Shown here: positions 3,573 through 43,784 of the stretch, in pieces
Layout: each line of letters starts with the position of its first letter
How positions within the stretch are numbered: position 1 is the first letter of the stretch
Source of the DNA: a virus
Reading direction: 5' to 3' (one strand)
Virus record (IMG/VR): IMGVR_UViG_3300025086_000013
Coordinates: 1-64,000 of that record
Length of the DNA stretch: 64,000 nt
Made by a program: the position numbers and the translations under genes
The notes under the pieces: generated by a model
Told to the model about the DNA's origin: nothing
What the model saw: the letters and a program-made list of their open reading frames with translations, nothing else
Database searches by the model: none

Positions 3573-3577
3573 TTTAT

Positions 3578-3585: not shown

Positions 3586-3604
3586 TTTTTTAAATATTTT
3601 AATT

Positions 3605-4045
3605 ATGACAGAAAAAGTTGGAAAAAATATGATTTTAATACATGCTCCTGATTTTCAAAGCATGGAAAAATCTTTTAAAATGATACCTATCACACTAGAT
3701 TGTCCTTATGTAGAATGTATGTATTCTGCAAAAGATAATGTAATGGCGGTTATCACTAGAACTATGAAGCAGTCTTATCATATGGTTCCTAAGTTAGATG
3801 ATAATGGAGATCCCATTAAAAGCAAAACTAAAAGACCAAATGGTAAAGATTTTAAAGAGGAAAGAAGATTAGTAGATACATTTTCAGAATTCTACTTACT
3901 TACCCCCGAAGAGATCAATGGTTTCATTGAATCTTTTGCAGTAAATGCAAAAACATTTGATTATAAAGCTTTAACTACACCAAAAAAGGATCCAAAAGAT
4001 GAAATAATATCAGTTGGAAAACCTGAATTAGTTAAAAAAGCGTAA
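3605..4045 (+). CDS. Hypothetical protein, 146 aa
   Basis: A soluble protein with a central charged loop (near residues 65-90, rich in Lys, Asp and Pro) and a C-terminal tail alternating Lys and Asp/Glu. Segments such as FSEFYLLTPEEINGFIESF look like a compact alpha/beta fold. There is no recognised family. It is preceded by a possible promoter box and followed by a strong terminator, so it may be the last gene of the first unit or be transcribed on its own. An abundant replication accessory factor, for example a DNA-binding protein, is possible but unsupported. Confidence 0.75.
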   Translation: MTEKVGKNMILIHAPDFQSMEKSFKMIPITLDCPYVECMYSAKDNVMAVITRTMKQSYHMVPKLDDNGDPIKSKTKRPNGKDFKEERRLVDTFSEFYLLTPEEINGFIESFAVNAKTFDYKALTTPKKDPKDEIISVGKPELVKKA

Positions 4046-4085
4046 GTTTTGGTCAAACTTTAAAATGACCTATTTTTCATGTTGA

Positions 4086-4124
4086 TAGGGAGCTGGTTTG
4101 TGTGACAGCTCCCTATTTTTTTTT
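4086..4124 (+). terminator. Rho-independent terminator
   Basis: A perfect 10-bp stem, TAGGGAGCTG (4086-4095) with CAGCTCCCTA (4106-4115), encloses a 10-nt loop and is followed by nine T residues (4116-4124). It separates the 3605-4045 gene from the DNA polymerase. Confidence 0.9.
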
Positions 4125-4136
4125 AAATTATTTTAT

Positions 4137-21538: not shown

Positions 21539-21668
21539 GGTCTTCAAAAGTTCCAATAACATAATAGTCATTATCAGATATATATAAATCAAGAATAGTA
21601 CCAAAGTCTCTTTTAAGCTCTTCATACTTATCTTTATCTATCTTTATTATTTTTTTATGTACTGGCAT
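21498..21668 (-). CDS. Small protein, 56 aa
   Basis: ATG at 21668 overlaps the stop of the 1917-aa gene (TAATG), which supports translation. MPVHKKIIKIDKDKYEELKR, then FGTILDLYISDNDYYVIGTF and EDLKAVGVDPG: a likely small alpha/beta fold. Its last 41 bp overlap tail to tail with the DUF5522-like gene. It is the last gene of the giant leftward operon; the function is unknown. Confidence 0.6.
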   Translation of the reverse strand: MPVHKKIIKIDKDKYEELKRDFGTILDLYISDNDYYVIGTFEDLKAVGVDPGVPFV

Positions 21669-24600: not shown

Positions 24601-27421
24601 CTTCTGAAAAATCTCTTGATGAATAATTATTAATAAATGTTTTAACATAGTTGTCTATAGCGTCATTTATAATTCCTTCTTTTCCTTCTTTTATATTACC
24701 TAATCCATCATATTCACCATTAACTTCATTAAGTTTTTCTATTAACTTTAATATTAAACTTTTTTGCTTAGACTTAAGACCCGCTATATTTTTAATACTT
24801 GTCAAACCTTCATAAGTACTTATCATTTTTTGAAAGTTTAGAATAACAGATATATATTCTTCAGAGTTCCAGTTGTCTTCGTTATGTGCATACTCTATAA
24901 ACTCATCCATAGTTTCAATTGCTTGCTCAAGTAATTTACTATATGCCGGACTGATCTCACCTTTAACTATTGCAGCATTAATCATAGATGATGTTCTCTG
25001 TATTTCAGAGATCATGTCCTGTTTACTTCTTATAAGCTTTGTGCTATCTGTTAATTTTGAAATTGCTTTATCTCTAGCAATTAATGCAACATCATAATTC
25101 ATCATTACTTCAAGCACAGATTGTTCTGTTTCGTGTGCTAATGCTTGTTCTTCTGCCTGAGCTTCATCATCATTTAATTCTGTAGGATTTACATTAGCTC
25201 TTTTAAACGCGTCATCTAATTTTTGTTCAGCATAAGGATCAATAAAAGGCGTTACAATTTGTTCTAAAGCATAGGTACCATTATCAAGTTTTACATCTTG
25301 TGATGGAGCATGATTTATTTCATCTTCTAATACAAAGTCTTGTAAAAATTTTTGATTTTTACCTTCACCTTTCATACGTACATTCACATGTAATGTAGTT
25401 GCTTGATCAACACTAAAACCCATATTTTGTAGTATTGTTCTATATGAATTAACCTGAAGGTTTTGCAATTGTCTCTTAGAAAATTTTTGCTGATCTTCAT
25501 GTTTTAAAGCAGGATTATAAAACATACTACCATATGTTACAGGATATTTTACATCTTGTTTTAATTGCACACCTTTACTATGCATTTCATATATAGAATT
25601 TTTACTTGTTTTTAAATCTATAATATCCATTGACCCATCTTTATTAACCATTAATAAATCAATAGATCCTGCTGTTTCTGACACAGCATCTGCAATAACA
25701 ACTTGAGGAATTAAAAGACCTGATCTAGATATACCTTTAAGTCTATTTGTAATATCATTATAAAATCTTCTAGCAGTTTCTGGAGTTAAAATTTTTAAAT
25801 CTAAAGTACTTATGTCTTCACCTAAAGCATATGCCTCAACTATAGAATCCATTTCATTTCCAAGTTCTACATTTAGCTGAAAGTCTTTTTCAGGAACATA
25901 TATTTCTGTTAAAGCATCTCCTGCAGAATCTTCTAGTTTTCTTAAATTAGTACCTATAGGATTTAATTTTTCAAGTTCTTCTTTACTAGTATCATATTTT
26001 TTTAATACATCATTTAATTTTTCACCTTTTTTAAGTTGATGACTCTTAGACATATAGCCACCTGCCTTTGTAGTTACACCATTATATTCTTCTAATGTTT
26101 CTATATTAATATATTTGTGATCTGTTTTATTTAATATAACTAATGGATGATTTTGACTACCTGTTATACCAACAGTAAAGTCTCCATATTGTTTTGCTCT
26201 ATCTGCTATAGAAGCATGAAACAATTGTTCAAGTACAATTTTTTGTTGTGGAGATTGAGCCTGTCCTTTTAGCTCTTCATAAACAGCCTTTTTCTGTTTA
26301 GTCATACTATAATAAATACCTGTGTCTCTTTTAATTGCTTTTTCAAGATTAAAGCTTAAACCTCCTGTATTAAGTAGTTTAGCAATATCTGACATGTTAG
26401 TACCAGTACGTATCATTCCGGGAGATAGCTTTAAAGATTCACCTGTAACGTATGCGTTTAGATCCTTAATTATATCCAGTAACCATTGTAAAATTTGTTT
26501 AACTTTATATCTCCAATCCATAGTTGGTTGGGTTTCATACTCTTTTTTAAAGTGTCTAGATAAAGATTGAGTCACAAGTTCTTTGTCTCTATATGTTTGA
26601 TCAAAACCATCTTTATCTCTGTATGCTCTATCAATCTCCTGTCTTAGTGTTGGAAATGTTTTTCTTGCTTCCTTAACTAATCCAGGAAATAAATTAATAC
26701 CATCTGCCTCAAGAGCATTAATAAAAGGATGTAAGACTTCTTCAATTGCTGTTTCTGAAGTTACACGTCCTTTAATTAAAACGGCATAACCTAATGAATA
26801 AAAACTTTTTATATTTTTAAAGTCTTGTTTTTTTTCTGTTCCATATTTAAATTGTGGTAATGCATCATATGCTTGCTTAGCTTGTGTTTCATCAAGAACT
26901 CTAATTTTTACATCAGGAAATAATCTTGTTAAGTGAGAAATAATATCTGCAGTATGAACTGTATCTTCAGAAGGTAAAATATTATCTTTAGTTTTTAATT
27001 TTGTGTGATCAATAGAAATCCTAAATGCTTTAGTAGTTTCTTCCATTATAACTGCATCTGGAGTTATTCCCCATACTTCTAATAATCTTTCTATTTTCTT
27101 TTTATTTAAAGCTAATGTAGCTGGATCAGAAACTGTAGATCCTTGAGGTGTATTATTAACATAAAACTTACCATGTAATCTACTAATAAGTTTTTTATCT
27201 CTTAAGTTTTCTAATATAGTTTCTGCTAGAACTCTACCTTGTATACTATTAAAAGCATTTTGTTTTTGTAAAAACGCTTCTGCTTGTGTTATTGTTGGTA
27301 TAAGATCTGAGTTGTTTACTTTTTGCCAACCGTTGATAATACTATCTACTACAATTGGTTTTTCAAATTTTGCTTCTAAGGCTTGATACTCTGCGGTATT
27401 CTTATTAAAACATGTGGCCAT
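21668..27421 (-). CDS. Giant virion protein with PD-(D/E)XK nuclease motif, 1917 aa
   Basis: Residues about 205-290 hold AIEEVLHPFINAL (H231) and KELVTQSLSRHF, resembling the metallopeptidase-like domain of phage polyvalent proteins, but without a full HExxH. Residues about 570-680 hold a nuclease core: D588 in GSIDLLM, D602-L-K604 in MDIIDLKTS, then a Q/Y-rich helix. The remainder is charged, helical and coiled-coil-rich (about 760-1400), and a late hydrophobic helix (LTLIMATFMLKVIVSSLF, near 1770) could insert in a membrane. There is no signal peptide. Size, position next to the RNA polymerase gene and layout fit an internal virion protein ejected with the genome. The nuclease could process incoming or host DNA. 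Confidence 0.75.
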   Translation of the reverse strand: MATCFNKNTAEYQALEAKFEKPIVVDSIINGWQKVNNSDLIPTITQAEAFLQKQNAFNSIQGRVLAETILENLRDKKLISRLHGKFYVNNTPQGSTVSDPATLALNKKKIERLLEVWGITPDAVIMEETTKAFRISIDHTKLKTKDNILPSEDTVHTADIISHLTRLFPDVKIRVLDETQAKQAYDALPQFKYGTEKKQDFKNIKSFYSLGYAVLIKGRVTSETAIEEVLHPFINALEADGINLFPGLVKEARKTFPTLRQEIDRAYRDKDGFDQTYRDKELVTQSLSRHFKKEYETQPTMDWRYKVKQILQWLLDIIKDLNAYVTGESLKLSPGMIRTGTNMSDIAKLLNTGGLSFNLEKAIKRDTGIYYSMTKQKKAVYEELKGQAQSPQQKIVLEQLFHASIADRAKQYGDFTVGITGSQNHPLVILNKTDHKYINIETLEEYNGVTTKAGGYMSKSHQLKKGEKLNDVLKKYDTSKEELEKLNPIGTNLRKLEDSAGDALTEIYVPEKDFQLNVELGNEMDSIVEAYALGEDISTLDLKILTPETARRFYNDITNRLKGISRSGLLIPQVVIADAVSETAGSIDLLMVNKDGSMDIIDLKTSKNSIYEMHSKGVQLKQDVKYPVTYGSMFYNPALKHEDQQKFSKRQLQNLQVNSYRTILQNMGFSVDQATTLHVNVRMKGEGKNQKFLQDFVLEDEINHAPSQDVKLDNGTYALEQIVTPFIDPYAEQKLDDAFKRANVNPTELNDDEAQAEEQALAHETEQSVLEVMMNYDVALIARDKAISKLTDSTKLIRSKQDMISEIQRTSSMINAAIVKGEISPAYSKLLEQAIETMDEFIEYAHNEDNWNSEEYISVILNFQKMISTYEGLTSIKNIAGLKSKQKSLILKLIEKLNEVNGEYDGLGNIKEGKEGIINDAIDNYVKTFINNYSSRDFSEAELENLLLTAKDIGLLEYQTGDMATSRDTILALMDKLYKRKVQEVLDKIEMRNATVRKLAKKIEKLGGNNYDFMLVLDDNGLPTGHYVKAIGQEYYKMRKALSDALRDEDGNPLEYVVKDNLSDLTKTEIDHNKKLHAARKAFGDFAKAERVLNDVRYDGKYHKYTKEFLTERSKYMVFRKGKWRKKAKVNDIDFASFQTKYYETKEYYKASYTRDEMNGHVKLMTDPFVKPEYVEKRQISSEGKDMRSAKYKKLMNPPAGNALAQAQKEFYEMYVEMFENDLLKKLPMHVNHQMVGRIPLIKETSLRKVKNAPNIIGSLWSKVISIPKNTYNYFFTKTYKTKVVLTDENGQFTNTLPIYYVGNPKNEETLQNIDNEINSLIAKRKAKEITEGEFNEKTEDLKRKRNKIQSRPALNEISTDMADNLIKFSSMAEHYEIMNGIEDTLSAMVKVLEKREYSPSDGSKITTFVKGKLKKVGIKSKTALEDPLIVRRAKKWMKMVYYDNDEETQGFFDKVTKGLISYTSLTYVGMNPFGNINNYAIGRLNNFVETMGGRYYDRKAGVRATVEFNKRMIPDFFKRIAYGQTFVGDVTGLGPSQYDKYRPGSKYEALVDLFRMMDDKADIREQNQLGSKKESTIRRAMGWGYMLQDAAEYNVQTKVGMATLMSTKIKNSKTNDVISLFDAYQYNQQTGELTMKDGYDTLINYQSGKETKWDENARYDTRNYIREVNKQIHGNYAYQDRMVMQSHSLGHLAAQFHKWIAPAIKARYREEYFDENLGWVEGRYKTFVSFAGHVAKNLLSARKAATEWKESQDPDKAKMKMENIYRTTAELTLIMATFMLKVIVSSLFDDEDEDKSVARKRAENALLFQLDRQRREMIQFMPVVGWYEAYNMMKNPISSIRMLGEMNDALVSMVQTPYLYIVKDEDEFYLDSRVTYQRGDKKGSLKLNKELRDVAPGLYALNRWWSYDTIKNFHIK

Positions 27422-27455: not shown

Positions 27456-30400
27456 TTACTTATAACATTTTTGCATTTGTTCTAAAAACTGTTCTAAGTT
27501 AAACTGATTATTTGAATCTTCATAATGTTTTATAAGATCTTTTAGTCTATCTCCTCCTAACTTCATGCTTGATATTATTTTTCCTTTTTGCATATCTGTT
27601 AAATCTCCCCACACTTCTGCTAATTTAAACTTATCATTTTGATTAACATCTTTAGATCCTATATCATCTTTAGTTGTACTTGCTTGTACATTGTCTGCTT
27701 TACCAAAATTAAGTACAACTTTTTTTGGTGCTTGTTCTTCTAGTCCCTTTCCTTTTATATTTTTATTCACAATTTCTTCTGCTTTATCTATAGTGGTATC
27801 ACCAACTATTTTATCTTTTTTTATAGCTCTTAAACCTTCATTGCTTGCAGCTACTCTTTCTATATCAGTATCACTAAGAGTTTTTTTCTTTTCATCTTTT
27901 ATCCACTTGTTTAATTTATCTTTTGTATAGTTTTCTTTATACTTAGATAGATCACCAAAGTTATTACCTTTTATTGAAACTTGTTTTTGTTTTTCTCTAA
28001 TTGTTTTGTAAGATGTTCTTCTTTGTAATTTTCCATCTTTACCAATATTAAAAATAAATGCTATAGGTGTTTGTTGTTTACTTCCATAAGGATCAAATTC
28101 TACATATTCAGCTCTTGTTCCATATGCAGCACTTTGTGCTTCATCTACATTAAGCATATCTTTTTGGGCTTTATATTGTCCTTCTGTATATGGAGTAAAT
28201 ATTTTTTCTAACCTGTAGTGTTTTATTTCTGTCCCGTCATCAACTAAATTACCTTTGTCATTTCGTTTTTTTACTGGAACCTCTATTTTGACCGCATAAG
28301 GAAATTTATGAATCTCTTGAGTCTGACCCTCATAATCTACTTCTACTGCTCTAAAACCTGCAGAATTAATTTTTTTAGAATTTTTCCACATCTTACTCTT
28401 TTTGTCATACTTATTCCATTTTCTATATTGTTTTTTACCTTCTTTATATACTATTTTACTTTGTCTAGTACCCGCTGCTTGATCTATAATAAGAGTATTA
28501 TCTTCTAAGTTTAATACTACAGGAGACATTCCTGGTGACTTAACTCCTTCAATTGATGCAGCAACATCTGTATCTATTTTTATAATTTTTTTATCTGTTT
28601 CTTTTATATCATAAACATATAATGTTAATTCATTTGTTGTATCTCTTAACCAGTCTTTAGTAAAATTATATTTTGCATCTGCCACTTTTTCAAAACCTTC
28701 TGACTTTATCATTTTTTCTTTACCTCCAGCTTCTTCAATGTTTAATTCTCCTCTATTTGTAACTTCATAAACTACCATCTTTCCAGTCTTAGGATCTTTA
28801 AACTCAACTAATTTAGATTCTCCTACATTTATGTTTATTTTTTTAGCACTTTCTTCTCTTCTAACAGTTGTGGTTTTTTCCCCTTTTATAATTTTCTTTA
28901 TGTTGCTTTCATCCATTGGTATATTAGCAGCTGTACCTGGTTTTGCTTTTTTCTTTACAGTTGGATTTTTAAATCCAAATTCTTCTAATAATCTTTTTTG
29001 TAAAAAGTCATAAGTCTTTGGTGCTTTTTCTTTTAACTTATATATATCTTCTACACCTACACCCTCTTCATTAAACACAACAGTAGCACCTGTTTCTTCT
29101 CCTGCCTGTTTTATTGCTTCTATAGCATCATTAATTTTATTTTGATTATCTTCAAGTTCACTATCAGTATAGTAAGAACTATCATCCATACCTTTATTCT
29201 TTTTAACAGGGATAGCAAATACATTAGGTAAATTTCTAAGACTACTAAAACCAACATTACCTTGTTGAGCTTCATTATCTGATATAACAAATATTTTATT
29301 TGATTGTTCTTCTATTGTATTCCTTTTTAAATTCTTTTTTAATTCTACTTCACCTTTAAAATCATATTCTTTCTTTTGTAGAACACTAACATATACTACT
29401 GTTTTATCTTTATTTGTTCTATTTAATTTTTGCAATAAATGATCAGCTGATGATGATTCAAAATATAATAATGAATATTCTGCTAATTCGCTAAAGGTCA
29501 TACCAAAAATGTTTTTATAGTCTTCATCTAAACCTTTATACCCTGCTTTTGCTGGTGGTTGTTTTGCAAATAAATTTGCCACATCAGAAGAAGCTTGTAA
29601 AAATCTTTCAAGTAAAACTGGAGGAACTATATTTAAATATGATCCAGCTCTAAATTGAAAACCATCTTTAACTAATAGGTAATTTATTAAATGTGTTACT
29701 GCAGCTCTTGATTTTTTGTCACCATCTAATAATGAAACTAACCCTGCTTGTAGTTTTTGAATTTGACTATCTTTTAATTGTGTCCATGAATTAACTTTAG
29801 CTCTATTTATTCCAGCTTTATTAACAGCTGTATTGGCTTTATCATTAAATAAAAACTCATTAATAAAATCATTTTTAATACCTTCTTTTTTAAGATAATC
29901 TCTAAGACTTGTTATTACTTCTACAATATCTACTGGTCCATCCATTTCTGGATATATTAAAGAATTTCTAACAGAAGATAATGCTTCTGGATCTGCTATA
30001 TCTTTTAGTAATTTTATATATGCAATTCCATCAACAAAACTTAATAAGTCTTTTCTAGCTTTTGATCTTGCAGCTTTTGCAAGAGCTGGGTTTAATGCAC
30101 CCATGTTAGCACTTATAACACTATTAATCTTTTTAAAGGGTTGAGATGCATATATAACTTGTTTTTGTAATAGTTTTTGTGTAAACTGTTTCCATATTCC
30201 ATAAAAGGTGGATTGCATTGTTGTACCTTTTTTTGGTTTAAATATTTTTCTTACATCAATAGATAATTCACTTTCACCCATTTCATTATCTGAGGCTTCT
30301 ATACCTAAAGAAGCAACAGAAGCTTCAGCAGCTTCAACAGCGTCTACATCTCTACCCATACCTTTAAACATATTTGCAAAAGCTGATAACTCTTTTGTTT

Positions 30401-33400
30401 GTTCAGATATAGTTATCATATTTAAAAACTGATTAAGTATAGCAATTTCACTTCTAATATAATCAGTTGACATTCTTGTACCAGTCTCTCTTGCTTCTTG
30501 TTCTAATGCCTCATAGTTTTCTATATGTTCTTCTAATAATGAATCATTAACAGGAACTTGTTTGGCTTCTTTAGCTATTTCTGAAGAGTAGCTAGTTAAA
30601 CTTTTTAATCTTTTTATAACTAAACCTTTAATACCAGGATCAGTAGGTTTATCTTTATGCATTGCAGAAAAATACATTTCTTTTATTTGAGGATGGTTCA
30701 CTAACATAACACTTGTATAAGGATCTATACCTAACGCAACCATATTTGCAACAACCCCTAAAGCATGTTTATTTAAACCCATTTTTCCAGCAAGAACATG
30801 TTTACCGTTATCTGTCATACCAGTTATAAATGAAGATATCCAATATTGAACTCTATCTCCTTGTTTATTTTGCTTACCTGTTTTAGGATCTATAATATAA
30901 TCTACATCATAAGTATTATAACTGTGACTATTAAATCTAGGAATAGGAAGAGATACAAAATCATTTTTTTCTCTAAGTGATATTTTAAAATCTTTTAACC
31001 ATCCTAAATATACATTTGGTAATACAACTGATCCAATATTTCTTGCGCCTTCTTTTACATTAGTATATGCTATGGTCTGGCCATTCATATTATCTATATC
31101 CATACCAGCTTCTCCTGCTTTTGCAGCTAAAGTTGGAAGTCTATCTTTTATTTTTTCCCACATGTCAGCTAAAGGATCAATTACAGCTGGTTCATTTTTA
31201 ATACCTAATCTACGCCCAGGTAATACTTTAGTCATACCATTATTACCAAGAAGAGCAAATTTATAATCTAATATATTATTATTGTAACCACCAGCATAAG
31301 GTTCAGAATATAAAACTCCTGTTTGTTTTTTTCCTTTAGAATCTTTATATGTATATTCTTTTTTATTTGATTCTCTAAATTCTTTATATTCATTTTTTGT
31401 TACAGGTAGTCCTAAAACTTTTAATGCTCCTGCTATATGTTTATTCTTTCCAAAGAATTCCATGATTTGTGCATCAGTAGCTTTTTCATTTACATCTATT
31501 TCATCTTTATATAAAGGATCAAATCCACCTGTTTCATTTTCATTTTTAGTTGGATCATAATCATATCCATTTTCTTTTGCCCATTTAGCTTTTACATTTT
31601 TAGGATCTGTTCCAGATAGTAGTCCAGATTTTTTATCCTTAGTTGCCCATGTTAAGTATTCATCAAATATAACATCAGCAGGTTTTTCAATTTCATACTT
31701 GCTATCATATAAAATACCCTTATTACTTCTCCATTTTTTAACAGCCATTGCCATGGAAGAACCTTTATCATTTTGATATTCTAGTGTTTTATATCTTATA
31801 TAGTCTGCAAATTGTTCATTTAAAGTAGCACCTTTACCATATTCTTTAAAATTACCTTGAGTATCAGTATAAAATTCTTTGTTTTGAATATATAATTTAT
31901 CAATATCAAAGTCAGCTCCTGATACTTCAATTAGTTCTCTAGGAAATACTGCAGTAGATCCTTTAGCAGCTGACATAAAATCAACAATTTTTAAATTTAT
32001 TGCTGAGTGTTTATCTTGAGAAGGAATACGTACACCAAATTGTTTTGCAATAGCATCTGGTATAGGTTTAGTAGGATCTAAGTTTTCCATTATTTCTCTG
32101 AAGTGTGGTGGTAATATAAATTCAGCATATACTAAATCAGTAGGAATTAATTGATTGTTCTCATCTTTCATTAATTTACCATCCTTATTTCTTTTATACT
32201 CTTGAACATCATACCTTAATCTATCTATATATAAATCACCAACTTCTAATCCTGAAAATTTTCCATCTGTATTTTCAGTAGCTACTGGATTCCCTTCATT
32301 ATCTAATGCTAATTTAGATTTTTCTGAATCACTCATTCTTTTAAAACCTTCTGTACTTACAACAGTCCATGCAATAGGGTTGCCATCTTTATCTTTAGCA
32401 TCAACTCTTTTAACTACATTTACACCATAGTCAGACATAAGAACTACATTATGACCTGGTTGTTTTTCACTTAATACACCCTTACTAAAGAATGTCATAA
32501 ATAGTTCTGACATTTTTTGTATAGTAATAGGGTTATTTAATTCATAATTAGGTTGTCCTGTTATTCTATCATAGGAAAAGAATTCTAAGTATTGTGATTT
32601 AGATTGAGAAGATTCTAATGCTGCTATAGCAAAATCTAGAAAAGATTTTAAATCTAAAGAAACTTCATTAGCATTAAAAGATTTATCTATTTCACCTAAT
32701 GCAGTACTAAGATCAAAGATAAGGCTTCTTCTGTCTAAGTACTTAAGCTCTACTCTATTAGATATAGAATAGTGATATAAGCTTTTAAGTTCTCCTATTG
32801 TTATTGTCTTATCACCAATAACAACTTCAACACTAGGATCCTGTTCATTAAGTATTAAATTTTTAATTTGTCTAGGATCAACAATTTCTGTCTTATTAGA
32901 AGGTGTTACTTGTTGAAGTCTCATGTAATCTGCATTAAGCACAGATACATTTTTTGAATTTATAAAAGTATTTGATTCAAATAGATCTGCATGTTCTGCA
33001 ATATTTTTATTAAACATTTTAGAAGCAGATTTAGGAACAGCCATTATAACTCTATTGTTTTCTTTTTCCCATGTCTCTAATTTTGTTCTTAAATTATATT
33101 GTTTTATTCTATGTGGATAAGGAGTTCTTACACCTGTATTTACATCTATGTAACTATCATCGTCTGGTATAAGATATGTTTCTGACATTTTTATAAATAT
33201 ACTTCCATCTCCATATACCCACTTCTTAGAGTTTAATTGTGCATCTAATTGTTTATATCCTATACTACTTTTATCAGCAGCACCAAACATTTCTTCACCT
33301 GTTATTTGTTCTCCTTTTTCAAGTCTATCTATTAGATTTGCTTGTTGTTTAGTTAATTCACCAAGACCAAAATACTTATATCTAAAACCTTTTAATGTAC

Positions 33401-36400
33401 CATATACTTGAGCATCTGTTTGAGAAATTGCATCACCCGGTTTGTCAGTATAAAATTCACTATCAATTTCAGGATCATTAAACACTATCATATCTATTTC
33501 TGTCAAAGTGTGTTTAACACCTAAGCTTGGAGCAGTAATTATTGACTTAGCACTTTTTCCTGCAGCATTTTGCATTTTTGCTCTTTTAATAGCATCTATA
33601 GGATCTTTTATTTTCATTGCTTGATTCCCAAGAAGTAATTGATTTATAGATTTTGTATTGAGCCAATTGCTAAGAAATATTTGCTTAAGGTTATATTCAA
33701 GTTGATTAGCTTTTAAATTTAAAGCTTCCATAGAAGTTTTAGTTTCTTGATTAACACCTCTATCTGCTTTACCTTCTTTTTTATTTATTGATAATTGTGT
33801 TTTAATTCTGTTATCAATAAGTTTTTCTGCTTTTATTTTCTTTGCAGTTTTTATAAACTCATCTGATTGAGCTAATAAAGCTTCTTGAATAAATTCTTGT
33901 GATGTTATTCCGCTTTCATGTTTAAAGCTTGCCATAGCGTCTTTAAAGCTTTTAGCTTTTCTTGCCTCTTTTTCTAAATGTCTTTTTAAAGAATTATCAA
34001 ATACATTTCCTTCTTGCTCAAATTCTCCTAGCTCTGCTCTTTCTATTTGAGCATCTTCAATAGGTTGTATTTTAATTCTATGTAAAATATTATTACCGTT
34101 ACCTTTAACACCATTAAACCATTCTTGTAATCTTTTACTTTTTACATAGTATGTATTATTATCATTGTCAATAACTTCAAATTTAAAAACATCATCTGAA
34201 TCTTTTTGTATTGAGTCACCTAGTTCTTCTATTACAGCATCAATATTTACATCCGTTCTTTGCACTATACCTTGATGTGCTACCTGATACTCTATGCCAT
34301 TTATTATAACTGTAGCACGTGTATTTTCACGCATACCTGTTATACCTCCTTTCTTTAAGAATACTTTTTGAGTAGCTCCTTCTTTTGTAATTAAAGGAAA
34401 ATCAGCTGATCCTAATCTTTTCTTTACAGCGTCTTCAGTAACCTCCACTCTTTTATCTGCTGTTCTTCTTATAGTTGTAACTTCTGAAGTTTGTGTTAAT
34501 TTATAAGCTCTATACTTTTTTTGATTTAAATCATTTTTAGTATCATTAATTTCTTCTAGACTATTAGCATCATTAAATCCATCTATAATATCTTCATCTG
34601 CTGTTGGGTTTAATAATTTTTCTGTTTCCTCTAGAATAATATTATATTCTTTTTCAACTTCTGCAATCCAATTATCAAGATAATCTTTTCTTAAACTAAC
34701 ATCTCCTGTTTTTTTATTTGTTTCAACAGCTTTATTTACAGGAGCTTCTATCCAGTCTGAAGTATTTGATTCACTTAAAACTCTAATTAATATAGGTGAT
34801 GTTGAAAAATAATCAATCTTTCCATTTTCATTTGTATATTCAATTTCATCTATTTTTCCTGTTACAGGATTAAAGTTTAATAAGTACATGTTTATCATGT
34901 TAGCTAAAAACTCATTTGGTCTCATTTCACCATAGCTTACACCTGGCATATTATTAGCATCAAGACCTTTGTTTTCTATAACAGTTCCATCCTTAGTAGT
35001 TGTAGTTGTAGTTTCTTTCATACCTATCATTCTGATAGCTTTAAGTTTTTTCAACTCTCCAAGTTTTTGCATTCTTTTGTCATTAGCTAGAAAGTTCTGT
35101 GCTAAATATCCAGTAGCATCATTATTCATAACTTCCTCTAGTCCACCTTGTTTATTTATCATTGCAATTTTCTGTAAATGATAAGTAGGTAACTGATGAG
35201 CATATATATAATTTCCTTTAGGATCTAAAAATACAGTTGTCCCTACAGTTTCATCAAAAGCAGCATTAGCAAGAGCCCATTTACCAAGTCTTTTTTTAAT
35301 ACCTTCTGGTTTTTCTTGTTCAGCTTTACTTTCTATATCTTCTTGTAAAGCCTCTAACTCTTCTGCATTTTGATTATCTAGAAATAAATTTTCTCCTCTT
35401 ACAAGAGACTGTTCTAATTCTGAAAGGTCTTCTATTGTAACAGGATTTTCATCAAACAAATCTGTTATAGAAGATTGATAAGGTGTAACAGCATCAGTCT
35501 TACCTGTTGATAAAATACTATACTGCACATATGCTGCACTTAAACTAATACCTGTAAGTTTTTCTAAATCTGCTGCAATTTCTTTTGAAACTTTTTTTAA
35601 TAAGGAATCAGATATAGTATTTTTTCTCATTTGTGATCTAAGTCTATCTAACACATCTTGAAGTTGTGTAAAATAAGGAGAATATACATTTACATCTTGC
35701 CCCTTTTTATTAGTTTCTATTCTTGGTTTTAATTTTTGAAATACTTGATCAAATGCTTCTCCCCATAATGCTAGTTGAGAATGTGCATCATCTTTTTTAT
35801 TTGCAGCAAATAAGCTTGTTTTACCTGAAGCTTTATCTCTTAATGCAAATATATAATCAACTCTAAATTGACTAAACCCTTTTATAACTTTTTGGTAAAA
35901 TATAGGATCTAAAGGTGTAGGTACTACTCCCTCTTCCATTATTTTAGTCATTGCATCTTGATAACCATTTTGTCCATACAATCTAACAAAAAAGTTTTTA
36001 ATAACAGCCGCACCATTTACACTTGTTTCACCAAATAGTAACATCTTTTTTAACATAGATATTTCATCTACTGCTCCTGCCATTGATTTAAGCATACTAT
36101 TATATGCTTGTATATAGTCAACACCTGTTCTAAGTACTAATTGATCTTTAGGAGCTGCTTCTGGATTTATTATTATATCTTTACCATATTTATCTTGTTC
36201 TTTGACTGAAGTAGTAGCAATAAATAAACGTAACTCAGTACTAAGATTTTTAAATCCTCCTTGTTGATTTGCTTCATCATCCCATTGTTCACCTCCGTTT
36301 TCTTCTTTACTTTCTAGTGCATCATGTTCATCCACATGAGTTTCAAATTCTTGTTTAGTTTGAAGAAGATCTAAATACTCTCTAGCTCCTTTTCTTATTT

Positions 36401-39400
36401 GTCTTTTATGATCTTTAAGGGCTTCATATTTTTCTTCTTGATCTAATATCTCTAAAGCTGAATAATCATTATATTCAGCTCTATCTGGATTTTGTGTTTC
36501 TACAATTAAATCAACTGCCTTTCTTAAAAGGTCTTTTGGTTTAATTCCTTTTTCTTTAGAAATTTTAGCTTGTGAAATCAGATCCCAATATGCTGCTGCA
36601 ATATTTCTTGTAATTTTATCTGACTCATTTGATGTAAAATAAATTTTAATAGGTGTATCTATTTCTATAATTTCACCAGCTCTTCTTACTTTCTCTTTTT
36701 TAACAATAGTTTTTTTAGGTATGATTGCAAATACTGGTGCTGCTATACCTCCGTTTGTTTCTGCTAAAGCTTCAGTAAATCTATTTGTTTGTCTGTTAGC
36801 TGTTTTAAATTTTCCTGAATCAATTTTTTCAAATAATTTATCTATTTGATTTTCTTTCCACTTTTTAGGAGTAACTTTTGAAAATATACTTATTATCCAG
36901 TCTAAAACTTTTCTGAAAAAACTTTTAATTTCTGGATCAACTTTTGTTTTTTTAGGGTTTATTTTAAACTCTTCAAATCTATCTGCCATCCATTCTTCAG
37001 ACATACGTTCTATTGCCTGTTCTTTAGTCATATCTGTATATACTGGACTTTGTAATTTAAATTCTTCTATGGCTTTATCTAAACTTTTATTTTCAGATTT
37101 TAATTGAGCCATTAAACCTTTTTTACCAAGTGATAAATATTTAACAATTTCTGTTTCAGTTAACATTAATCTAAATACAGCATGGAATGCTTCATGATAT
37201 CTATAAGGAGATGTATTACCAGTATATATTTTACCAAAAAACTTCTCACCTCCAGCAACTTTTCTTAGTTCCATTAAAAAAGCACCTACAGTAATACCAT
37301 TGTTTTTAAGTTTTAATTGTAAGTTGTCTATCTCTTCTATACTAATATAATCAGGAAGATTTTGTTTAACCCAATTTATAAATACATTTATATCTTGTAT
37401 ATCTCTTCCATCCCAATCATCTTTAACCACCTTTAAAACTGATCCTTCTAACTCATCTATTTTTGCTTTTAATGCAATTATTTGAGGATCCTTTGCTACT
37501 TCATCAAGTACCTTACGTCTTAAACCTTTTGTTCCTTCAGGAAAAGTACTTTTTATTTTTTCAAATTTTTGAACCCATAGATCTTTGTATTCTTTTTTTA
37601 ATTTATCTAGATCTTTAACGTCTTGCTGATTCATTGTTTGAGGTGGTGTAAGACCTTCTTCATTTTCTATTTGTTCAGCTTTAGGATCGTTTTGTTTAAG
37701 AGCTGCTACATAATTTAATATTTTACGTCTATTTGCTCTTGATCTAAATATTATATCTTCTTGTTTTTTAAGTTCTTGTTTTTCATTTACTTTTCTAGCT
37801 ATATCTTCAAGCACCGCTTCTGGAACTTTTTCAAAATTATTGTTAAGAGATTTTTCAAAATCTTTCTTGTACCAAGTATCTAAATCAAATACTGTAGTAT
37901 CATCTTCTCCTTGTTGCTCATTTTCTATATTATCATAAGGGTCTGCTGCATTATCTAATATTCTTTGAATACCAGCTGGATCATTAACTACTAAATCCAT
38001 ACGTTGATTATATCTAATCCACGGTTTTATATTAACACTTGTATTGTCTTTTAAATCTTTAAAAGTAGCATCTTTAGGAACACTGTTTCTAAAAGCACTA
38101 GCATCTAATTTAAAATTTGTTTCATGAAACTTAACTTTTCCTTTATGATCTTTTTTTGCTTCTGCTTCTTTTTTATCTAACTTTTCTTGTATTAGTTTAA
38201 TAAATCCCTCTACATCATTACTTTCTATTTTTTCTAAATCTTTAGGATATATTGTTGCATCATAATCTAATTTAACTTCTACATTTTTTCCTCCTACAAT
38301 TGTTTTAAATTTTCTAGAATAATCAACTTGAAGATTACCAAATTCTGTTACTTCAAGTTTTATTGTTTCACCAGGTTTACCTGAAATAAATAAACCTTTA
38401 GAAAAACCAAATATATCTTTTTCACCACTACCGTTATCAAGCTCTTCATTAAATTTATAATTAAATTTTTTATCAACTCTTTCAGGTTGAGATCCTTTTT
38501 CTTTTTTAAAGTTACCACCTTCATCTACATTTAACTTAGTAAGAGAAACTCTGTCTTTAATTTTTTGAATAATGTTAGAAATTTCTGATGTAGATTTAGA
38601 TTCAGATTTCATTTCTGCAAATGTAATTTCACCATCAGGAGTTTTAATAACTAATACATATCTACCAAAATTATTTCTTAAATCAGCTCTATCTGCTGCT
38701 TCTTTTACTTCTGCTCTAAATTCTTTATATTTTTTTTGTTGCCACTTTTCATCTTGTGGAAAATTAGTTATACGGTCAGCTTCAGCTAATCTTTCTTCTG
38801 AACCTAGCTCAGATACACGTTGATCTATAATATAATATATATCTGTTGGTACACCATCTACTTTCATAGTACCAATAGTATTATATTCTAGTTGATCAAA
38901 TTTTGTCATTTCTGACTTCTTCTTAGGATATGCAACTATTCCTTTATTAATTTTTACACCAATCTTTTGCTCATCCATCAGATCTGTAAGTTTCATTTTT
39001 ACAGTTCCATCATCAGATTTGTTTATTAAGTCTTCAAATTTCTCTTCTAATAAATAAGCAGCTGCATATGTTCTTTGTAATTTTTCAGCAGCTTTATCAT
39101 CTTTATTTGTTCTAAATAATTGATGGGCTTGTTCAGAAGTTATTTTTAATGGGTTTATTTTGTTATTATTTTTATCTAATAATATTACATCACTAGGACT
39201 TTGAAGAACTGCTATTTGTTCTTTTCCTGACCACAGAACAACACTGTACTTTGAACCTCCTCTTTTTATTTTTGTATTTACTTCATAACCTTCAAAATTT
39301 TCAAACTGATCTAGATCTTTAGTTTCTTTTCCAGCAACATTAGTTTCATAAGCATCACTCCTTTCAATTCTTATTTCAAAATTAGCTATAGTTTCTGGAT

Positions 39401-42400
39401 CCATTTCCATTATTTGTCTAGCTAATTCTAATCTAGCATCTTCACTATCACTATATAATTTTCTTCCATTAATTTCTGGATTAAAAGCATAAAACTGTAA
39501 AGGTTCTTGCATTCTTAATCTAGTTGTTTTAGTAGCTGGTAAGTTTATTTCTTTTCTGTCTTCTTTCTTGGCTCCTATTTTACTTCCAACAGTCCAACCA
39601 CCATCATCAAAATTTTCTTGATCTATGTATTTAATTTTACCAGTTCCTTCTGTGCTAACAACTTTTAAATTATTATATTCCTCTACATTGTCTTTTGATG
39701 ATGCAACTTGCCATGTATTACCATCTTTATCTTCTACTATATCACCTTTTTTAAAAGTATCTGTTTTATTTTCTGAAGTTTTAAAATCAAACTCTGTAGT
39801 TTCTTGAAGCTTTTCTCTTAAATCCTTCATAGCTTGATCTGCTTCAGATTTATTTGTATAATGATCTTTAAGAAACTTACCTTCTGGATCTAAACCTCTA
39901 TGCATGTCATGTGCATTATCATTAGCAAAAGTTCTTATTTCCCAAAATTTATCTTTTTTATTAGTTTTTTTATTATATGCGTCAGTTCTAACAAGTCTTA
40001 TTCCAATCTTCATTGCATATTCTTCAACCTCATTACTATCAATTTCAGCTTTTACTTTTGTTTTGTTGTTCATTACATTATCATATAATATATCAACAAC
40101 ATCTAAACCTTGAGTATTAACTATTTTTATAATAGAAGCTAGACCTTGATTAGCACTTAGCCACTGATCAAATGTTTTATCTCTTTTTTTAGCGGCACTT
40201 AACTTTTCATATATGGCATATGTTTTTTGTCTAGATCTTGCAAAAGGTGCACCATATTCAGATTTTATAAATTTATTAATATCTATTATTAAAGGACCTT
40301 TATTTGTTGACTTATCATTTGCCCATCTTATTTTATACTCATCATGTAATACATGAAGCATTTCTTTTGTGTTTGGATCTTTATCTAAAAACTTTTGAAG
40401 ATTATCTAAAGTTGTAACTTGTACTGGTGATTGACCAGCACCTTTAGCAATAGCATCAAGGTCTTCTTCAGTAGTGTCATCATCAATAGATCCTTTATCT
40501 ATATTTTCTTTATCTACTTCAGCTTCTTCACCTACTTCTTCTTCTTTAGATTTTTTATCTGCTTCTACAATTAAATTATGATTAGTTTTTTCATCTTGAA
40601 TAATTTTCCAAGCTGCAGGATTTTCTTTTGCTGTAACTACATTAATTTTACTATCTTCACTATAATAGTCTGTTGGAAGAACACCGGATTCTAAAAATAT
40701 TTTTGCTTGATCTGCATCTGCAAAAATTCCTTTTTTTGCTAATGCTGATAAATATTTTGAACGCTCTTGTTTTTTAATAAATGTATCTAATTTTTTATAG
40801 ATATTGTATTTCTTTTTATTTTCTTTCCATATTCTATTCATTGACTCTGACATTCTATCTGCAACTTCAACAAGCATTTCGGAATTGTTTAATACTTGAG
40901 AAGCTTTATAATAGTCAATCATTCTACCGCCTAAAGTCTTATGATCAATAATCATATCAAGAGCTTCATTTAACTTATCTTTATCTGCCCCTCCTCTATT
41001 TTTACCACTAGTTAATGCAAGATGATCTATATAATTATTAAAAGCTTTTCTAAGTTTTGCAATCTTTCTTCTATCAAATTCTGATGTAGATGTTTCATTT
41101 TCTTTGGAATAAAATACATCATAATATTCCTTAAGAAGTTTTAATTTTTCTTTTTTATTTTCATATTGTTTTTTAAAGTCTTTTGGAGCATTTTTTTCAG
41201 GTTCTATTTTTAATTCTTCAGTCAATATACTCATTTCTTGAAGCATAGAATTTCTATCTGTTAATGCTGCAATATCATTAGCAGCTAAATTATCTATAAC
41301 TGGATCTACAGCAAGTTTTTCTAGTATTGATTCCATTCTTTGTATAGATCTCTGATATGTATCATTAGAAAACATTAACATCATTTTAGCTTGTTGGTAT
41401 GCTCTCTCCCTTATTGCTTCTTGAGCCCATGCTAATGAGTTTGTCTTAAATTTACTTGCATCATAAGGATTTATAAATTTATCTTTAAATTTATTATAAT
41501 TATTTTCCATGTCTCCAAGTCTTTCAAGCATTCCTGAAAGTCTTTTTCTAACATCATCAGCACTAGCTTCTGAATCAGAAAACGCTTCTAATAATTCTGC
41601 ATTATCCATATTAAGATAAGCTTGGAATTTCTTTTTAAATTCATTAGCTTTTCCTAGATCAATCATTGTATATAGCTTACTAAATATAGCTTGATCTTTT
41701 GCATCTTTAAAGTTCATTATTCTACCTTCATAAGATGCTGCTAACATTTCTATATTAAGTTGTTTTTGAGTAAGACCATCTATCTTTGTTGGATCAAAAT
41801 AGTTTCTTGGATCAGCCCACATTTCATTGAGAGCATCTACAGAATTTTTTACATACTTTTCCTTTTGTTTTTGATAGTTATCATATTTTTCTTTATCTGT
41901 TACATATGTATATGCTTGAGGCATATGCTCAAATAAAATTTTTTGAAAAGGTTGAACCATACCACCCATTAAAAATCCTGACATAAATGTTTCAAATGTT
42001 ACACCTTCACCATGAATAGCTGCAGCATATGCATCTTTAAATTTAACATTACCAGATTTTCTAGCAGATTCTACAGATGCTATATTTAAATCTAATGACG
42101 TTGACATAACTTCATTAAACAATCCATCATAATAATAACCTGTACCAGCAGCAACTGCTTCTTGTGCTAATTCTTGAAAACCTTCTGCAAAATTAGCTGT
42201 AAGATATCTAAGACCTGCAGCACCTGCACCTTTAGCTCCATTCTTCCAACCTGCATTCCAAACTCCTTTAAGACCAGTTCCTGCATCAAAGAATGCTTTT
42301 TCTGACCCAGCTTTAGATCTAAGAATTCTACCACCAGCACCTTCCATAGTTTCATCTAGCATTCTACCTATAGGTTTAAATCCTCTTAGTGCACCATCTA

Positions 42401-43784
42401 AAACAAGCTTATTACTTAACCATATAATTGGAAAATTTTTCCATGCCGTACTCCATCCTACACCTTTAGATAAATAGTTAATAGCATCCCATTCTTCTTT
42501 TGATAATTCAGCTCCACCATTTTTTTCTAATGCTTCTATGTAATATTGCTCTCTTTTATCTAATTCTTGTATACCACCTTCTAATTTAGATTCTGACCAT
42601 GCTAAATTAATCATTCTTAAATCTCTATAAAATCCACCAAAAGTTTTAGAAGCTTTAGCTAAATTAGAAAGATTCTTAACACCATTTTTTGTAGAGTTTA
42701 TTTTGCTTAAAGCATACGCTGTTTCTGGTGCTATACCAGACATAACCCATCTTCCTGCTCTTGCTGTATATGTATTACCTTTTGCAAAATTATAAAAATC
42801 TCTTGCTTTATCAATAGCACCTAGCTCTTGCATAAAGTTTTGAGTATAGTTTGTTGCAGTTCTTCCTACATCATTAAGTTTGTCTGCAGCAGTAAATAAT
42901 CTTTTTAAATTTCCTGCAGTTCTTAATGCAGCTACTTCACTTGCTATACCACCTGTTGCAACTGTTAAACCACCAAGTGCAACTTCTTCTACAAAAATAC
43001 TACTAATAATACCAGCTGTATAAGAACTATTTAAAAATAAATCATTAACAAATCCACCAACACCACCTCTAGTAGAAGAGCCAACTCTCATTGCATCTCT
43101 CATAGATTCACCACCAACAAGATCTGTTTCAAGACCATCACCAGTAAAGTAATCACCTATTGCTCTCCAGCTACTTGTAAATGCAGGACCAAACATATCT
43201 CCAAAAGCACCCATTGTTCTGCCCATATCATCCCACCATGTACTATTTTGATTATAGTATACTTCATTATCTTGAAAAGGATGAAATCCTATATCTTGAA
43301 ATTTAGGGTGTCTAAAGTATCTATCTGCATTCATTTGCTTTTTACCATAGATAATAGGCTCTCTGTAACCAGCAGGAGTACCAGAAGTACTTTGATTTGC
43401 TACTTCATTTTTTCTACTAATAAATGCCTCTCTTCCTTCAGAAGTAGTTAAGTCAGGTATATTAGATGAATCAGTAAATGGATTTACATTTGGAGAAGAA
43501 TTTCCTGGATAACCATCTCCTATATCTGGAATTTTTGGTAATACTGAATTAATATCATAAGAAGCTCTTTCAATTGCTTTTTTAGTATCAGGATCAACAT
43601 TATAGTTATCAATATCTGTAATTGTAGAAGCCATAAGCTTATCATCTATCTCATCCATTTGATATCCAGATAGTGCTTTTTCCTGTGTACTTATAGGCAT
43701 AGTATTATTTACAGGAGGTTGAGATGTAGGTGTAGCAGGAATTTGGGTATTTGCTACTTGATTATTTGTATTTTCTTCTGCCAT
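27456..43784 (-). CDS. Giant crAss-like virion RNA polymerase protein, 5442 aa
   Basis: The key signature is SGADFDIDKLYI with D3958, D3960 and D3962, the metal-binding loop of the single-chain, double-psi barrel RNA polymerase carried in crAss-like virions (phi14:2 gp66). FGVRIPSQDKHSAINL precedes it as expected. The N-terminus (about 1-330) is polar, then has FRHPKFQDIGFHPFQDNE, a W-W-D-D phrase and hydrophobic segments such as AGIISSIFVEEVALGGLTVA, suited to membrane passage. H2197-E-A-F-H2201 with a downstream SEEWMADRF forms a gluzincin-like protease site. Near the C-terminus lie a domain with IFVISDNEAQQG (about 4830) and an ASCH-like domain (GEKTTTVRREES, about 4965). The protein is probably packaged, ejected and used to transcribe early genes. 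Whether it is cut into pieces is unknown. Confidence 0.85.
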   Translation of the reverse strand: MAEENTNNQVANTQIPATPTSQPPVNNTMPISTQEKALSGYQMDEIDDKLMASTITDIDNYNVDPDTKKAIERASYDINSVLPKIPDIGDGYPGNSSPNVNPFTDSSNIPDLTTSEGREAFISRKNEVANQSTSGTPAGYREPIIYGKKQMNADRYFRHPKFQDIGFHPFQDNEVYYNQNSTWWDDMGRTMGAFGDMFGPAFTSSWRAIGDYFTGDGLETDLVGGESMRDAMRVGSSTRGGVGGFVNDLFLNSSYTAGIISSIFVEEVALGGLTVATGGIASEVAALRTAGNLKRLFTAADKLNDVGRTATNYTQNFMQELGAIDKARDFYNFAKGNTYTARAGRWVMSGIAPETAYALSKINSTKNGVKNLSNLAKASKTFGGFYRDLRMINLAWSESKLEGGIQELDKREQYYIEALEKNGGAELSKEEWDAINYLSKGVGWSTAWKNFPIIWLSNKLVLDGALRGFKPIGRMLDETMEGAGGRILRSKAGSEKAFFDAGTGLKGVWNAGWKNGAKGAGAAGLRYLTANFAEGFQELAQEAVAAGTGYYYDGLFNEVMSTSLDLNIASVESARKSGNVKFKDAYAAAIHGEGVTFETFMSGFLMGGMVQPFQKILFEHMPQAYTYVTDKEKYDNYQKQKEKYVKNSVDALNEMWADPRNYFDPTKIDGLTQKQLNIEMLAASYEGRIMNFKDAKDQAIFSKLYTMIDLGKANEFKKKFQAYLNMDNAELLEAFSDSEASADDVRKRLSGMLERLGDMENNYNKFKDKFINPYDASKFKTNSLAWAQEAIRERAYQQAKMMLMFSNDTYQRSIQRMESILEKLAVDPVIDNLAANDIAALTDRNSMLQEMSILTEELKIEPEKNAPKDFKKQYENKKEKLKLLKEYYDVFYSKENETSTSEFDRRKIAKLRKAFNNYIDHLALTSGKNRGGADKDKLNEALDMIIDHKTLGGRMIDYYKASQVLNNSEMLVEVADRMSESMNRIWKENKKKYNIYKKLDTFIKKQERSKYLSALAKKGIFADADQAKIFLESGVLPTDYYSEDSKINVVTAKENPAAWKIIQDEKTNHNLIVEADKKSKEEEVGEEAEVDKENIDKGSIDDDTTEEDLDAIAKGAGQSPVQVTTLDNLQKFLDKDPNTKEMLHVLHDEYKIRWANDKSTNKGPLIIDINKFIKSEYGAPFARSRQKTYAIYEKLSAAKKRDKTFDQWLSANQGLASIIKIVNTQGLDVVDILYDNVMNNKTKVKAEIDSNEVEEYAMKIGIRLVRTDAYNKKTNKKDKFWEIRTFANDNAHDMHRGLDPEGKFLKDHYTNKSEADQAMKDLREKLQETTEFDFKTSENKTDTFKKGDIVEDKDGNTWQVASSKDNVEEYNNLKVVSTEGTGKIKYIDQENFDDGGWTVGSKIGAKKEDRKEINLPATKTTRLRMQEPLQFYAFNPEINGRKLYSDSEDARLELARQIMEMDPETIANFEIRIERSDAYETNVAGKETKDLDQFENFEGYEVNTKIKRGGSKYSVVLWSGKEQIAVLQSPSDVILLDKNNNKINPLKITSEQAHQLFRTNKDDKAAEKLQRTYAAAYLLEEKFEDLINKSDDGTVKMKLTDLMDEQKIGVKINKGIVAYPKKKSEMTKFDQLEYNTIGTMKVDGVPTDIYYIIDQRVSELGSEERLAEADRITNFPQDEKWQQKKYKEFRAEVKEAADRADLRNNFGRYVLVIKTPDGEITFAEMKSESKSTSEISNIIQKIKDRVSLTKLNVDEGGNFKKEKGSQPERVDKKFNYKFNEELDNGSGEKDIFGFSKGLFISGKPGETIKLEVTEFGNLQVDYSRKFKTIVGGKNVEVKLDYDATIYPKDLEKIESNDVEGFIKLIQEKLDKKEAEAKKDHKGKVKFHETNFKLDASAFRNSVPKDATFKDLKDNTSVNIKPWIRYNQRMDLVVNDPAGIQRILDNAADPYDNIENEQQGEDDTTVFDLDTWYKKDFEKSLNNNFEKVPEAVLEDIARKVNEKQELKKQEDIIFRSRANRRKILNYVAALKQNDPKAEQIENEEGLTPPQTMNQQDVKDLDKLKKEYKDLWVQKFEKIKSTFPEGTKGLRRKVLDEVAKDPQIIALKAKIDELEGSVLKVVKDDWDGRDIQDINVFINWVKQNLPDYISIEEIDNLQLKLKNNGITVGAFLMELRKVAGGEKFFGKIYTGNTSPYRYHEAFHAVFRLMLTETEIVKYLSLGKKGLMAQLKSENKSLDKAIEEFKLQSPVYTDMTKEQAIERMSEEWMADRFEEFKINPKKTKVDPEIKSFFRKVLDWIISIFSKVTPKKWKENQIDKLFEKIDSGKFKTANRQTNRFTEALAETNGGIAAPVFAIIPKKTIVKKEKVRRAGEIIEIDTPIKIYFTSNESDKITRNIAAAYWDLISQAKISKEKGIKPKDLLRKAVDLIVETQNPDRAEYNDYSALEILDQEEKYEALKDHKRQIRKGAREYLDLLQTKQEFETHVDEHDALESKEENGGEQWDDEANQQGGFKNLSTELRLFIATTSVKEQDKYGKDIIINPEAAPKDQLVLRTGVDYIQAYNSMLKSMAGAVDEISMLKKMLLFGETSVNGAAVIKNFFVRLYGQNGYQDAMTKIMEEGVVPTPLDPIFYQKVIKGFSQFRVDYIFALRDKASGKTSLFAANKKDDAHSQLALWGEAFDQVFQKLKPRIETNKKGQDVNVYSPYFTQLQDVLDRLRSQMRKNTISDSLLKKVSKEIAADLEKLTGISLSAAYVQYSILSTGKTDAVTPYQSSITDLFDENPVTIEDLSELEQSLVRGENLFLDNQNAEELEALQEDIESKAEQEKPEGIKKRLGKWALANAAFDETVGTTVFLDPKGNYIYAHQLPTYHLQKIAMINKQGGLEEVMNNDATGYLAQNFLANDKRMQKLGELKKLKAIRMIGMKETTTTTTKDGTVIENKGLDANNMPGVSYGEMRPNEFLANMINMYLLNFNPVTGKIDEIEYTNENGKIDYFSTSPILIRVLSESNTSDWIEAPVNKAVETNKKTGDVSLRKDYLDNWIAEVEKEYNIILEETEKLLNPTADEDIIDGFNDANSLEEINDTKNDLNQKKYRAYKLTQTSEVTTIRRTADKRVEVTEDAVKKRLGSADFPLITKEGATQKVFLKKGGITGMRENTRATVIINGIEYQVAHQGIVQRTDVNIDAVIEELGDSIQKDSDDVFKFEVIDNDNNTYYVKSKRLQEWFNGVKGNGNNILHRIKIQPIEDAQIERAELGEFEQEGNVFDNSLKRHLEKEARKAKSFKDAMASFKHESGITSQEFIQEALLAQSDEFIKTAKKIKAEKLIDNRIKTQLSINKKEGKADRGVNQETKTSMEALNLKANQLEYNLKQIFLSNWLNTKSINQLLLGNQAMKIKDPIDAIKRAKMQNAAGKSAKSIITAPSLGVKHTLTEIDMIVFNDPEIDSEFYTDKPGDAISQTDAQVYGTLKGFRYKYFGLGELTKQQANLIDRLEKGEQITGEEMFGAADKSSIGYKQLDAQLNSKKWVYGDGSIFIKMSETYLIPDDDSYIDVNTGVRTPYPHRIKQYNLRTKLETWEKENNRVIMAVPKSASKMFNKNIAEHADLFESNTFINSKNVSVLNADYMRLQQVTPSNKTEIVDPRQIKNLILNEQDPSVEVVIGDKTITIGELKSLYHYSISNRVELKYLDRRSLIFDLSTALGEIDKSFNANEVSLDLKSFLDFAIAALESSQSKSQYLEFFSYDRITGQPNYELNNPITIQKMSELFMTFFSKGVLSEKQPGHNVVLMSDYGVNVVKRVDAKDKDGNPIAWTVVSTEGFKRMSDSEKSKLALDNEGNPVATENTDGKFSGLEVGDLYIDRLRYDVQEYKRNKDGKLMKDENNQLIPTDLVYAEFILPPHFREIMENLDPTKPIPDAIAKQFGVRIPSQDKHSAINLKIVDFMSAAKGSTAVFPRELIEVSGADFDIDKLYIQNKEFYTDTQGNFKEYGKGATLNEQFADYIRYKTLEYQNDKGSSMAMAVKKWRSNKGILYDSKYEIEKPADVIFDEYLTWATKDKKSGLLSGTDPKNVKAKWAKENGYDYDPTKNENETGGFDPLYKDEIDVNEKATDAQIMEFFGKNKHIAGALKVLGLPVTKNEYKEFRESNKKEYTYKDSKGKKQTGVLYSEPYAGGYNNNILDYKFALLGNNGMTKVLPGRRLGIKNEPAVIDPLADMWEKIKDRLPTLAAKAGEAGMDIDNMNGQTIAYTNVKEGARNIGSVVLPNVYLGWLKDFKISLREKNDFVSLPIPRFNSHSYNTYDVDYIIDPKTGKQNKQGDRVQYWISSFITGMTDNGKHVLAGKMGLNKHALGVVANMVALGIDPYTSVMLVNHPQIKEMYFSAMHKDKPTDPGIKGLVIKRLKSLTSYSSEIAKEAKQVPVNDSLLEEHIENYEALEQEARETGTRMSTDYIRSEIAILNQFLNMITISEQTKELSAFANMFKGMGRDVDAVEAAEASVASLGIEASDNEMGESELSIDVRKIFKPKKGTTMQSTFYGIWKQFTQKLLQKQVIYASQPFKKINSVISANMGALNPALAKAARSKARKDLLSFVDGIAYIKLLKDIADPEALSSVRNSLIYPEMDGPVDIVEVITSLRDYLKKEGIKNDFINEFLFNDKANTAVNKAGINRAKVNSWTQLKDSQIQKLQAGLVSLLDGDKKSRAAVTHLINYLLVKDGFQFRAGSYLNIVPPVLLERFLQASSDVANLFAKQPPAKAGYKGLDEDYKNIFGMTFSELAEYSLLYFESSSADHLLQKLNRTNKDKTVVYVSVLQKKEYDFKGEVELKKNLKRNTIEEQSNKIFVISDNEAQQGNVGFSSLRNLPNVFAIPVKKNKGMDDSSYYTDSELEDNQNKINDAIEAIKQAGEETGATVVFNEEGVGVEDIYKLKEKAPKTYDFLQKRLLEEFGFKNPTVKKKAKPGTAANIPMDESNIKKIIKGEKTTTVRREESAKKININVGESKLVEFKDPKTGKMVVYEVTNRGELNIEEAGGKEKMIKSEGFEKVADAKYNFTKDWLRDTTNELTLYVYDIKETDKKIIKIDTDVAASIEGVKSPGMSPVVLNLEDNTLIIDQAAGTRQSKIVYKEGKKQYRKWNKYDKKSKMWKNSKKINSAGFRAVEVDYEGQTQEIHKFPYAVKIEVPVKKRNDKGNLVDDGTEIKHYRLEKIFTPYTEGQYKAQKDMLNVDEAQSAAYGTRAEYVEFDPYGSKQQTPIAFIFNIGKDGKLQRRTSYKTIREKQKQVSIKGNNFGDLSKYKENYTKDKLNKWIKDEKKKTLSDTDIERVAASNEGLRAIKKDKIVGDTTIDKAEEIVNKNIKGKGLEEQAPKKVVLNFGKADNVQASTTKDDIGSKDVNQNDKFKLAEVWGDLTDMQKGKIISSMKLGGDRLKDLIKHYEDSNNQFNLEQFLEQMQKCYK

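Follow-up and report, generated by a model that had tools for sequence, protein, structure and literature searches.

The crassvirus transcription block is built of large proteins, here named A, B and C. In phi14:2 all three are separate, with lengths of 1797, 2180 and 1421 aa, and gp66 (PDB 6VR4; AGO48955, 2180 aa) occupies the middle of the block. In p-crAssphage the catalytic subunit is fused with another subunit in a protein of 4070 aa, and the annotation of gp45 reads 'fused to zincin protease'. RNA polymerases reaching ~6000 aa are considered a hallmark of the crAss group (review, PMC10136315), and the same review describes in vitro activity and rifampicin-resistant early transcription for the phi14:2 polymerase (PMC10136315). 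RNA polymerase-associated proteins have been found by mass spectrometry in crAss001 virions (PMC10172136).

The window analysed here, a stretch of 64,000 nucleotides from IMG/VR virus record IMGVR_UViG_3300025086_000013, contains a fused gene A and gene B protein of 5442 aa (27456..43784, minus strand) that joins a zincin-bearing cargo part to a putative virion RNA polymerase. The 16.3-kb open reading frame, first reported with no strand, is real: it runs from 43784 to 27456 as a single frame with no internal stop in the standard code, the plus strand across 27456-43784 has stops throughout, and the ATG lies 3 bases past the stop codon of the upstream gene. The frame sits well within its source record, a 94,934-bp virus, the remaining 31 kb of which were also analysed. 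The same genome encodes a Crass_capsid major capsid protein (PF23898, E 2.1e-31), a crAss_MUZ muzzle protein (PF25731, E 1.2e-17), a portal (phrog_6547, E 7.1e-94) and a TerL (phrog_6681, E 1.4e-69), the terminase sharing ~25% identity with the best-scoring terminases of named phages. Judging by the homology of its capsid, portal, TerL and muzzle genes and by its A-B-C transcription block, the genome is that of a crassvirus (order Crassvirales).

Profiles of the relatives were aligned with crassvirus A, B and C alignments using hhalign, whose E-values are pairwise and not calibrated against a database. The A profiles match at 95.4% over the zincin part and at 91.9% over 30 columns close to the N-terminus; in between, the gene A part is too diverged to match. 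The B profiles match at 100% (E 2.2e-67, 1564 columns) and the C profiles at 100% (E 4.1e-63). The six cross pairings of A, B and C serve as a control, and each stays below 5%. Thus, the 5442-aa protein combines A and B, and C is the gene at 21668-27421. The gene A part, counterpart of crAss001 gp47 and p-crAssphage gp45, spans residues 1 to ~2450 (36435..43784, minus strand), the position of the join being approximate. The gene B part, counterpart of phi14:2 gp66 and crAss001 gp50, covers residues ~2505-4760 (29505..36272, minus strand), again with approximate limits. Gene C, identified by hhalign (21668..27421, minus strand), codes for 1917 aa and is the counterpart of crAss001 gp49 and of the third transcription-block protein of phi14:2. 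A DUF7831 domain (PF25176, E 7.2e-20) is inserted near the C-terminus of the giant at residues 4815-4930 (28995..29342, minus strand).

Evidence that the gene B part is a crAss-type polymerase comes from alignments rather than from single sequences. Single-sequence phmmer against the PDB, Pfam on the polymerase core and a single-protein IMG/VR scan for relatives found no match, and single-sequence PHROGs searches matched none of the giant proteins except a LysM-bearing protein of 2327 aa; alignments were therefore needed. A tblastn search with the motif region returned 111 phage records, and the matches listed, phi14:2 among them, are either crass-like or gut contigs lacking annotation. A further IMG/VR scan for the polymerase confirmed at least 509 relatives, of which the best 80 were kept. 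When a 57-sequence profile of environmental relatives, with phi14:2 left out, was compared with the whole PDB, the sole significant chain was 6vr4_A, phi14:2 gp66 (E 2.5e-19, over two stretches of that chain), and the next chain scored 0.43.

The predicted structure leads to the same protein. The catalytic core was modelled with AF2 over residues 3320-4480 (30345..33827, minus strand; pLDDT 82.4, pTM 0.82), and Foldseek against the PDB places this model on 6VR4 (E 1.3e-22, probability 1.00, TMq 0.56, 1194 alignment columns), the sole significant match, followed by QDE-1 (E 0.054) and P23-45 gp96 (E ~1). Among viral models, most of the named matches at E < 0.001 are crass-like virus proteins. 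A second model, of residues 2095-3290, also matches 6VR4 (E 2.4e-11), which indicates that the polymerase part reaches well upstream of the core. The double-psi barrel pair anticipated by the original prediction is thereby supported as a predicted gp66 fold with both barrels in one chain, by a match of the model as a whole.

The metal-binding loop DFDID, identified by motif and alignment, lies at residues 3958-3962 (31899..31913, minus strand), exactly where it was first reported, in the context ELIEVSGADFDIDKLYIQNKEF. Bare DFDxD is expected 0.12 times per shuffle of the giant protein, so that the five letters alone are weak evidence and the surrounding region decides. In an alignment of 21 sequences, made up of the giant of the window together with representatives of four crassvirus families, the residues G3956, D3958, F3959, D3960, D3962, R3919, P3921, S3927, P3892, G3777, Q3624 and K3589 are invariant in 21/21. 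The DxDxD motif occurs in the crAss context G[SA]DFD[IV]D, and its three aspartates align with D1361, D1363 and D1365 of gp66, in keeping with the proposed likeness to the gp66 catalytic loop; in the AF2 model they are predicted to share one loop ahead of strand 644-649. The invariant lysine K3589 (33018..33020, minus strand), before the DFDID barrel, aligns with gp66 K1065. Two other DxDxD strings in long frames of the genome, DFDAD and DLDGD, were considered as marks of a second polymerase and rejected, as both lack the crAss context.

None of the tests run produced evidence against polymerase identity, and sequence profile, predicted fold and gene order all support the crAss-type, gp66-like assignment that the original prediction made from the motif. 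In sequence and in predicted fold alike, the polymerase part is a homologue of phi14:2 gp66, with which it shares the profile, the DFDID loop, the flanking invariant residues and a place in the middle of the transcription block. It differs in that gp66 is a separate protein whose upstream gene has no HExxH, whereas in the window A and B are joined in a single chain that also carries DUF7831 and long insertions. Taken as a whole, the locus is very probably explained by a crAss-like RNA polymerase fused to the gene A protein and probably carried in the virion. By comparison with the crAss001 cargo and the phi14:2 polymerase, the giant chain would be packaged in the virion, extruded partly unfolded and then active in the cell, a course of events that is probable by analogy. 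The fused N-terminal half would most likely be the leading, envelope-facing part, and the zincin may, as a guess, cut either the chain or an envelope protein.

The protease-like and membrane-passage-like regions first proposed for the same chain fare differently. The former is upheld at the level of motifs. A zincin motif HEAFH (YHEAFH in context) is present at residues 2197-2201 (37182..37196, minus strand), and conserved E2263-E2264 (36993..36998, minus strand), ~62-67 residues past HEAFH, are candidates for the third zinc ligand, so that the giant possesses HExxH and a candidate acidic ligand downstream. HE[AP]FH recurs in 75/79 frames, the one in the window included. The best profile match of the zincin region is a weak one to Pro-Pro endopeptidase (E 0.28), no zincin is listed among the Foldseek matches of the 1196-residue model (2095-3290), and the stretch just ahead of the zincin is modelled at low confidence. 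For membrane passage, one conserved hydrophobic stretch at residues 257-275 (42960..43016, minus strand) is a weak membrane-helix candidate, but its Kyte-Doolittle mean of 1.56 is barely above that of the 4344 stretch within the soluble polymerase core; it lends membrane passage weak support.

The position of the zincin suggests an alternative in which the giant is a polyprotein: the zincin would cleave at the A/B join, either within the virion or following entry, to leave a polymerase of gp66 size (~2,200-2,900 residues). The motif stands at the C-terminus of the gene A part, directly before the polymerase part, and is also found near the end of the separate gene A protein in crAss001 gp47 (2341 aa, YHEAFH at 2157) and Dulem virus 41 (2474 aa, motif at 2327). 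The parts function unfused in Steigviridae and Intestiviridae, and a weakly conserved stretch is present at ~3051-3300. However, these same separate proteins show the zincin where nothing needs to be cleaved, and its presence in phages with separate A and B indicates that it has no exclusive tie to fusion. HExxH is absent from gene A of phi14:2, DAC15 and cr106, no cleavage site was identified in the giant, and the weakly conserved stretch falls inside the gene B part, away from the join. This polyprotein reading is accordingly rather unlikely, and it is similarly doubtful that the zincin ending the gene A part processes its own chain and so frees the polymerase during or after ejection. If it were, packaging as a single molecule would ensure equal delivery of the envelope-crossing and transcribing parts.

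A tape-measure-fused virion RNA polymerase like P23-45 gp96 is very unlikely. That protein also reaches giant size (5002 aa) and likewise includes a DxDxD polymerase (PMC10770324), but its polymerase is N-terminal whereas that of the window lies in the C-terminal half, P23-45 polymerase structures match the core model at noise level (E ~1, vs 1.3e-22 for 6VR4), and the muzzle, capsid and portal of the genome are those of a crassvirus. DFDID might also have arisen by chance in a giant structural protein of an unrelated kind. The ease with which bare DFDxD arises (~0.12 per shuffle) could be cited for this, but the profile, the fold, the invariant residues around the motif and the order of the genes agree on a polymerase and refute it, and its probability is negligible.

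The A+B fusion has counterparts in other crassviruses. Seven sampled Suoliviridae encode A+B giants, namely cr130_1 (5801 aa), cr273_1 (5794 aa), cr118_1 (4946 aa), cr1_1 (4551 aa), cr115_1 (4493 aa), cr10_1 (4460 aa) and cr113_1 (4328 aa). The description of the protein as one of the largest in phages is thus fair as to size, although it is no record, as the proteins that cr130_1 and cr273_1 encode at the equivalent place are longer with TAG read through. Like the giant of the window, the Suoliviridae proteins occupy one frame with HEA[FWY]H, DFD[IV]D ~1440-1880 residues further on, and then gene C where the record reaches. They differ in sharing only ~16-20% identity with it over the core and in occupying a separate branch of the polymerase tree. 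Several of their frames also require readthrough of in-frame stops, whereas that of the window requires none. The annotated giant frames of cr130_1, cr113_1, cr115_1 and cr273_1 contain 36-80 in-frame stops in the standard code, which fits reassignment of a stop codon.

Closer relatives are found among IMG/VR crass-like contigs (L029-L108; e.g. L029, L030 and L038), which share 32-46% identity over the modelled core. Among the best 80 of at least 509 such relatives, almost every intact frame sampled is of the fused type. Complete frames are mostly 4283-4798 aa, and the longest incomplete frame is 5415 aa; a crass capsid is present on 15/17 contigs, and the largest genomes are 112-135 kb. The stretch occupied by DUF7831 is filled in few of these relatives: the domain is also present in L038 and weakly in cr130_1, and a domain search of the close relatives L029 and L030 did not find it. 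Size and the DUF7831 near the C-terminus are what distinguish the giant within its clade. The best viral predicted-structure match, from an unclassified virus, is Virus NIOZ-UU157 A0A7S9XE14 (43% identity, 898-residue piece compared). In quick polymerase trees that sampled Steigviridae, Intestiviridae, Suoliviridae and Crevaviridae and that are subject to a long-branch warning, the window and the environmental contigs form their own clade (100 SH-aLRT) on a long stem outside these four named families. The Epsilon and Zeta groups are absent from the trees, and family rank is therefore not claimed.

The rarity implied by the original prediction does not hold, since A+B fusion is the usual arrangement in Suoliviridae and in the large set of environmental relatives. 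The giant A+B form is already known, and the novelty is the environmental lineage, not the mechanism. The fused state of Suoliviridae is usual also among environmental crassviruses of a large branch that has hardly been described. Together these phages provide a natural series, in which the genes range from separate to fused as A+B or B+C, that serves two questions: how a chain of ~600 kDa passes through a phage tail, and what role the zincin plays.

Several further observations concern the genome and its relatives. Four large upstream proteins (963 to 2327 aa) show no match to alignments of putative crAss C1/C2 ejection proteins, which were drawn from ten or eleven crassviruses. The 2327-aa protein (window 54324-61307) has two LysM stretches, an L,D-transpeptidase (YkuD) domain and endolysin-like matches, and is likely a cell-wall-acting virion protein. 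Next to it, a frame at ~61307-69970 (window 61307-64000 plus L001:1-6171; ~2887 aa) continues past the window end, with the crass muzzle match in its N-terminal part and a reprolysin-type metallopeptidase match (E 3.4e-15) toward its C-terminus; the muzzle protein may thus carry a protease. Among the best 80 relatives, L044 (3288 aa) and L046 (1629 aa) have a shorter giant frame though the locus runs on, representing a broken frame, a real split or an assembly error. For contig WLWP01000004 (114,697 bp) of a Pseudomonadales metagenome-assembled genome, its length and a crass-capsid match in the same genome suggest that it is phage DNA assigned to the wrong bin. Finally, polymerase relatives are present in Spirosoma oryzae DSM 28354 (NZ_PVTE01000009, 182678-188714; 3367-aa frame) and Spirosoma terrae KCTC 52035 (NZ_JAAFZH010000004, 477470-483488; 3599-aa frame), each with a crass-capsid match ~44 kb off on the same contig, that of S. 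oryzae being below the curated cut-off. Together with the location of both on large contigs of isolate genomes, this suggests integrated crass-like elements in cultured Bacteroidota.
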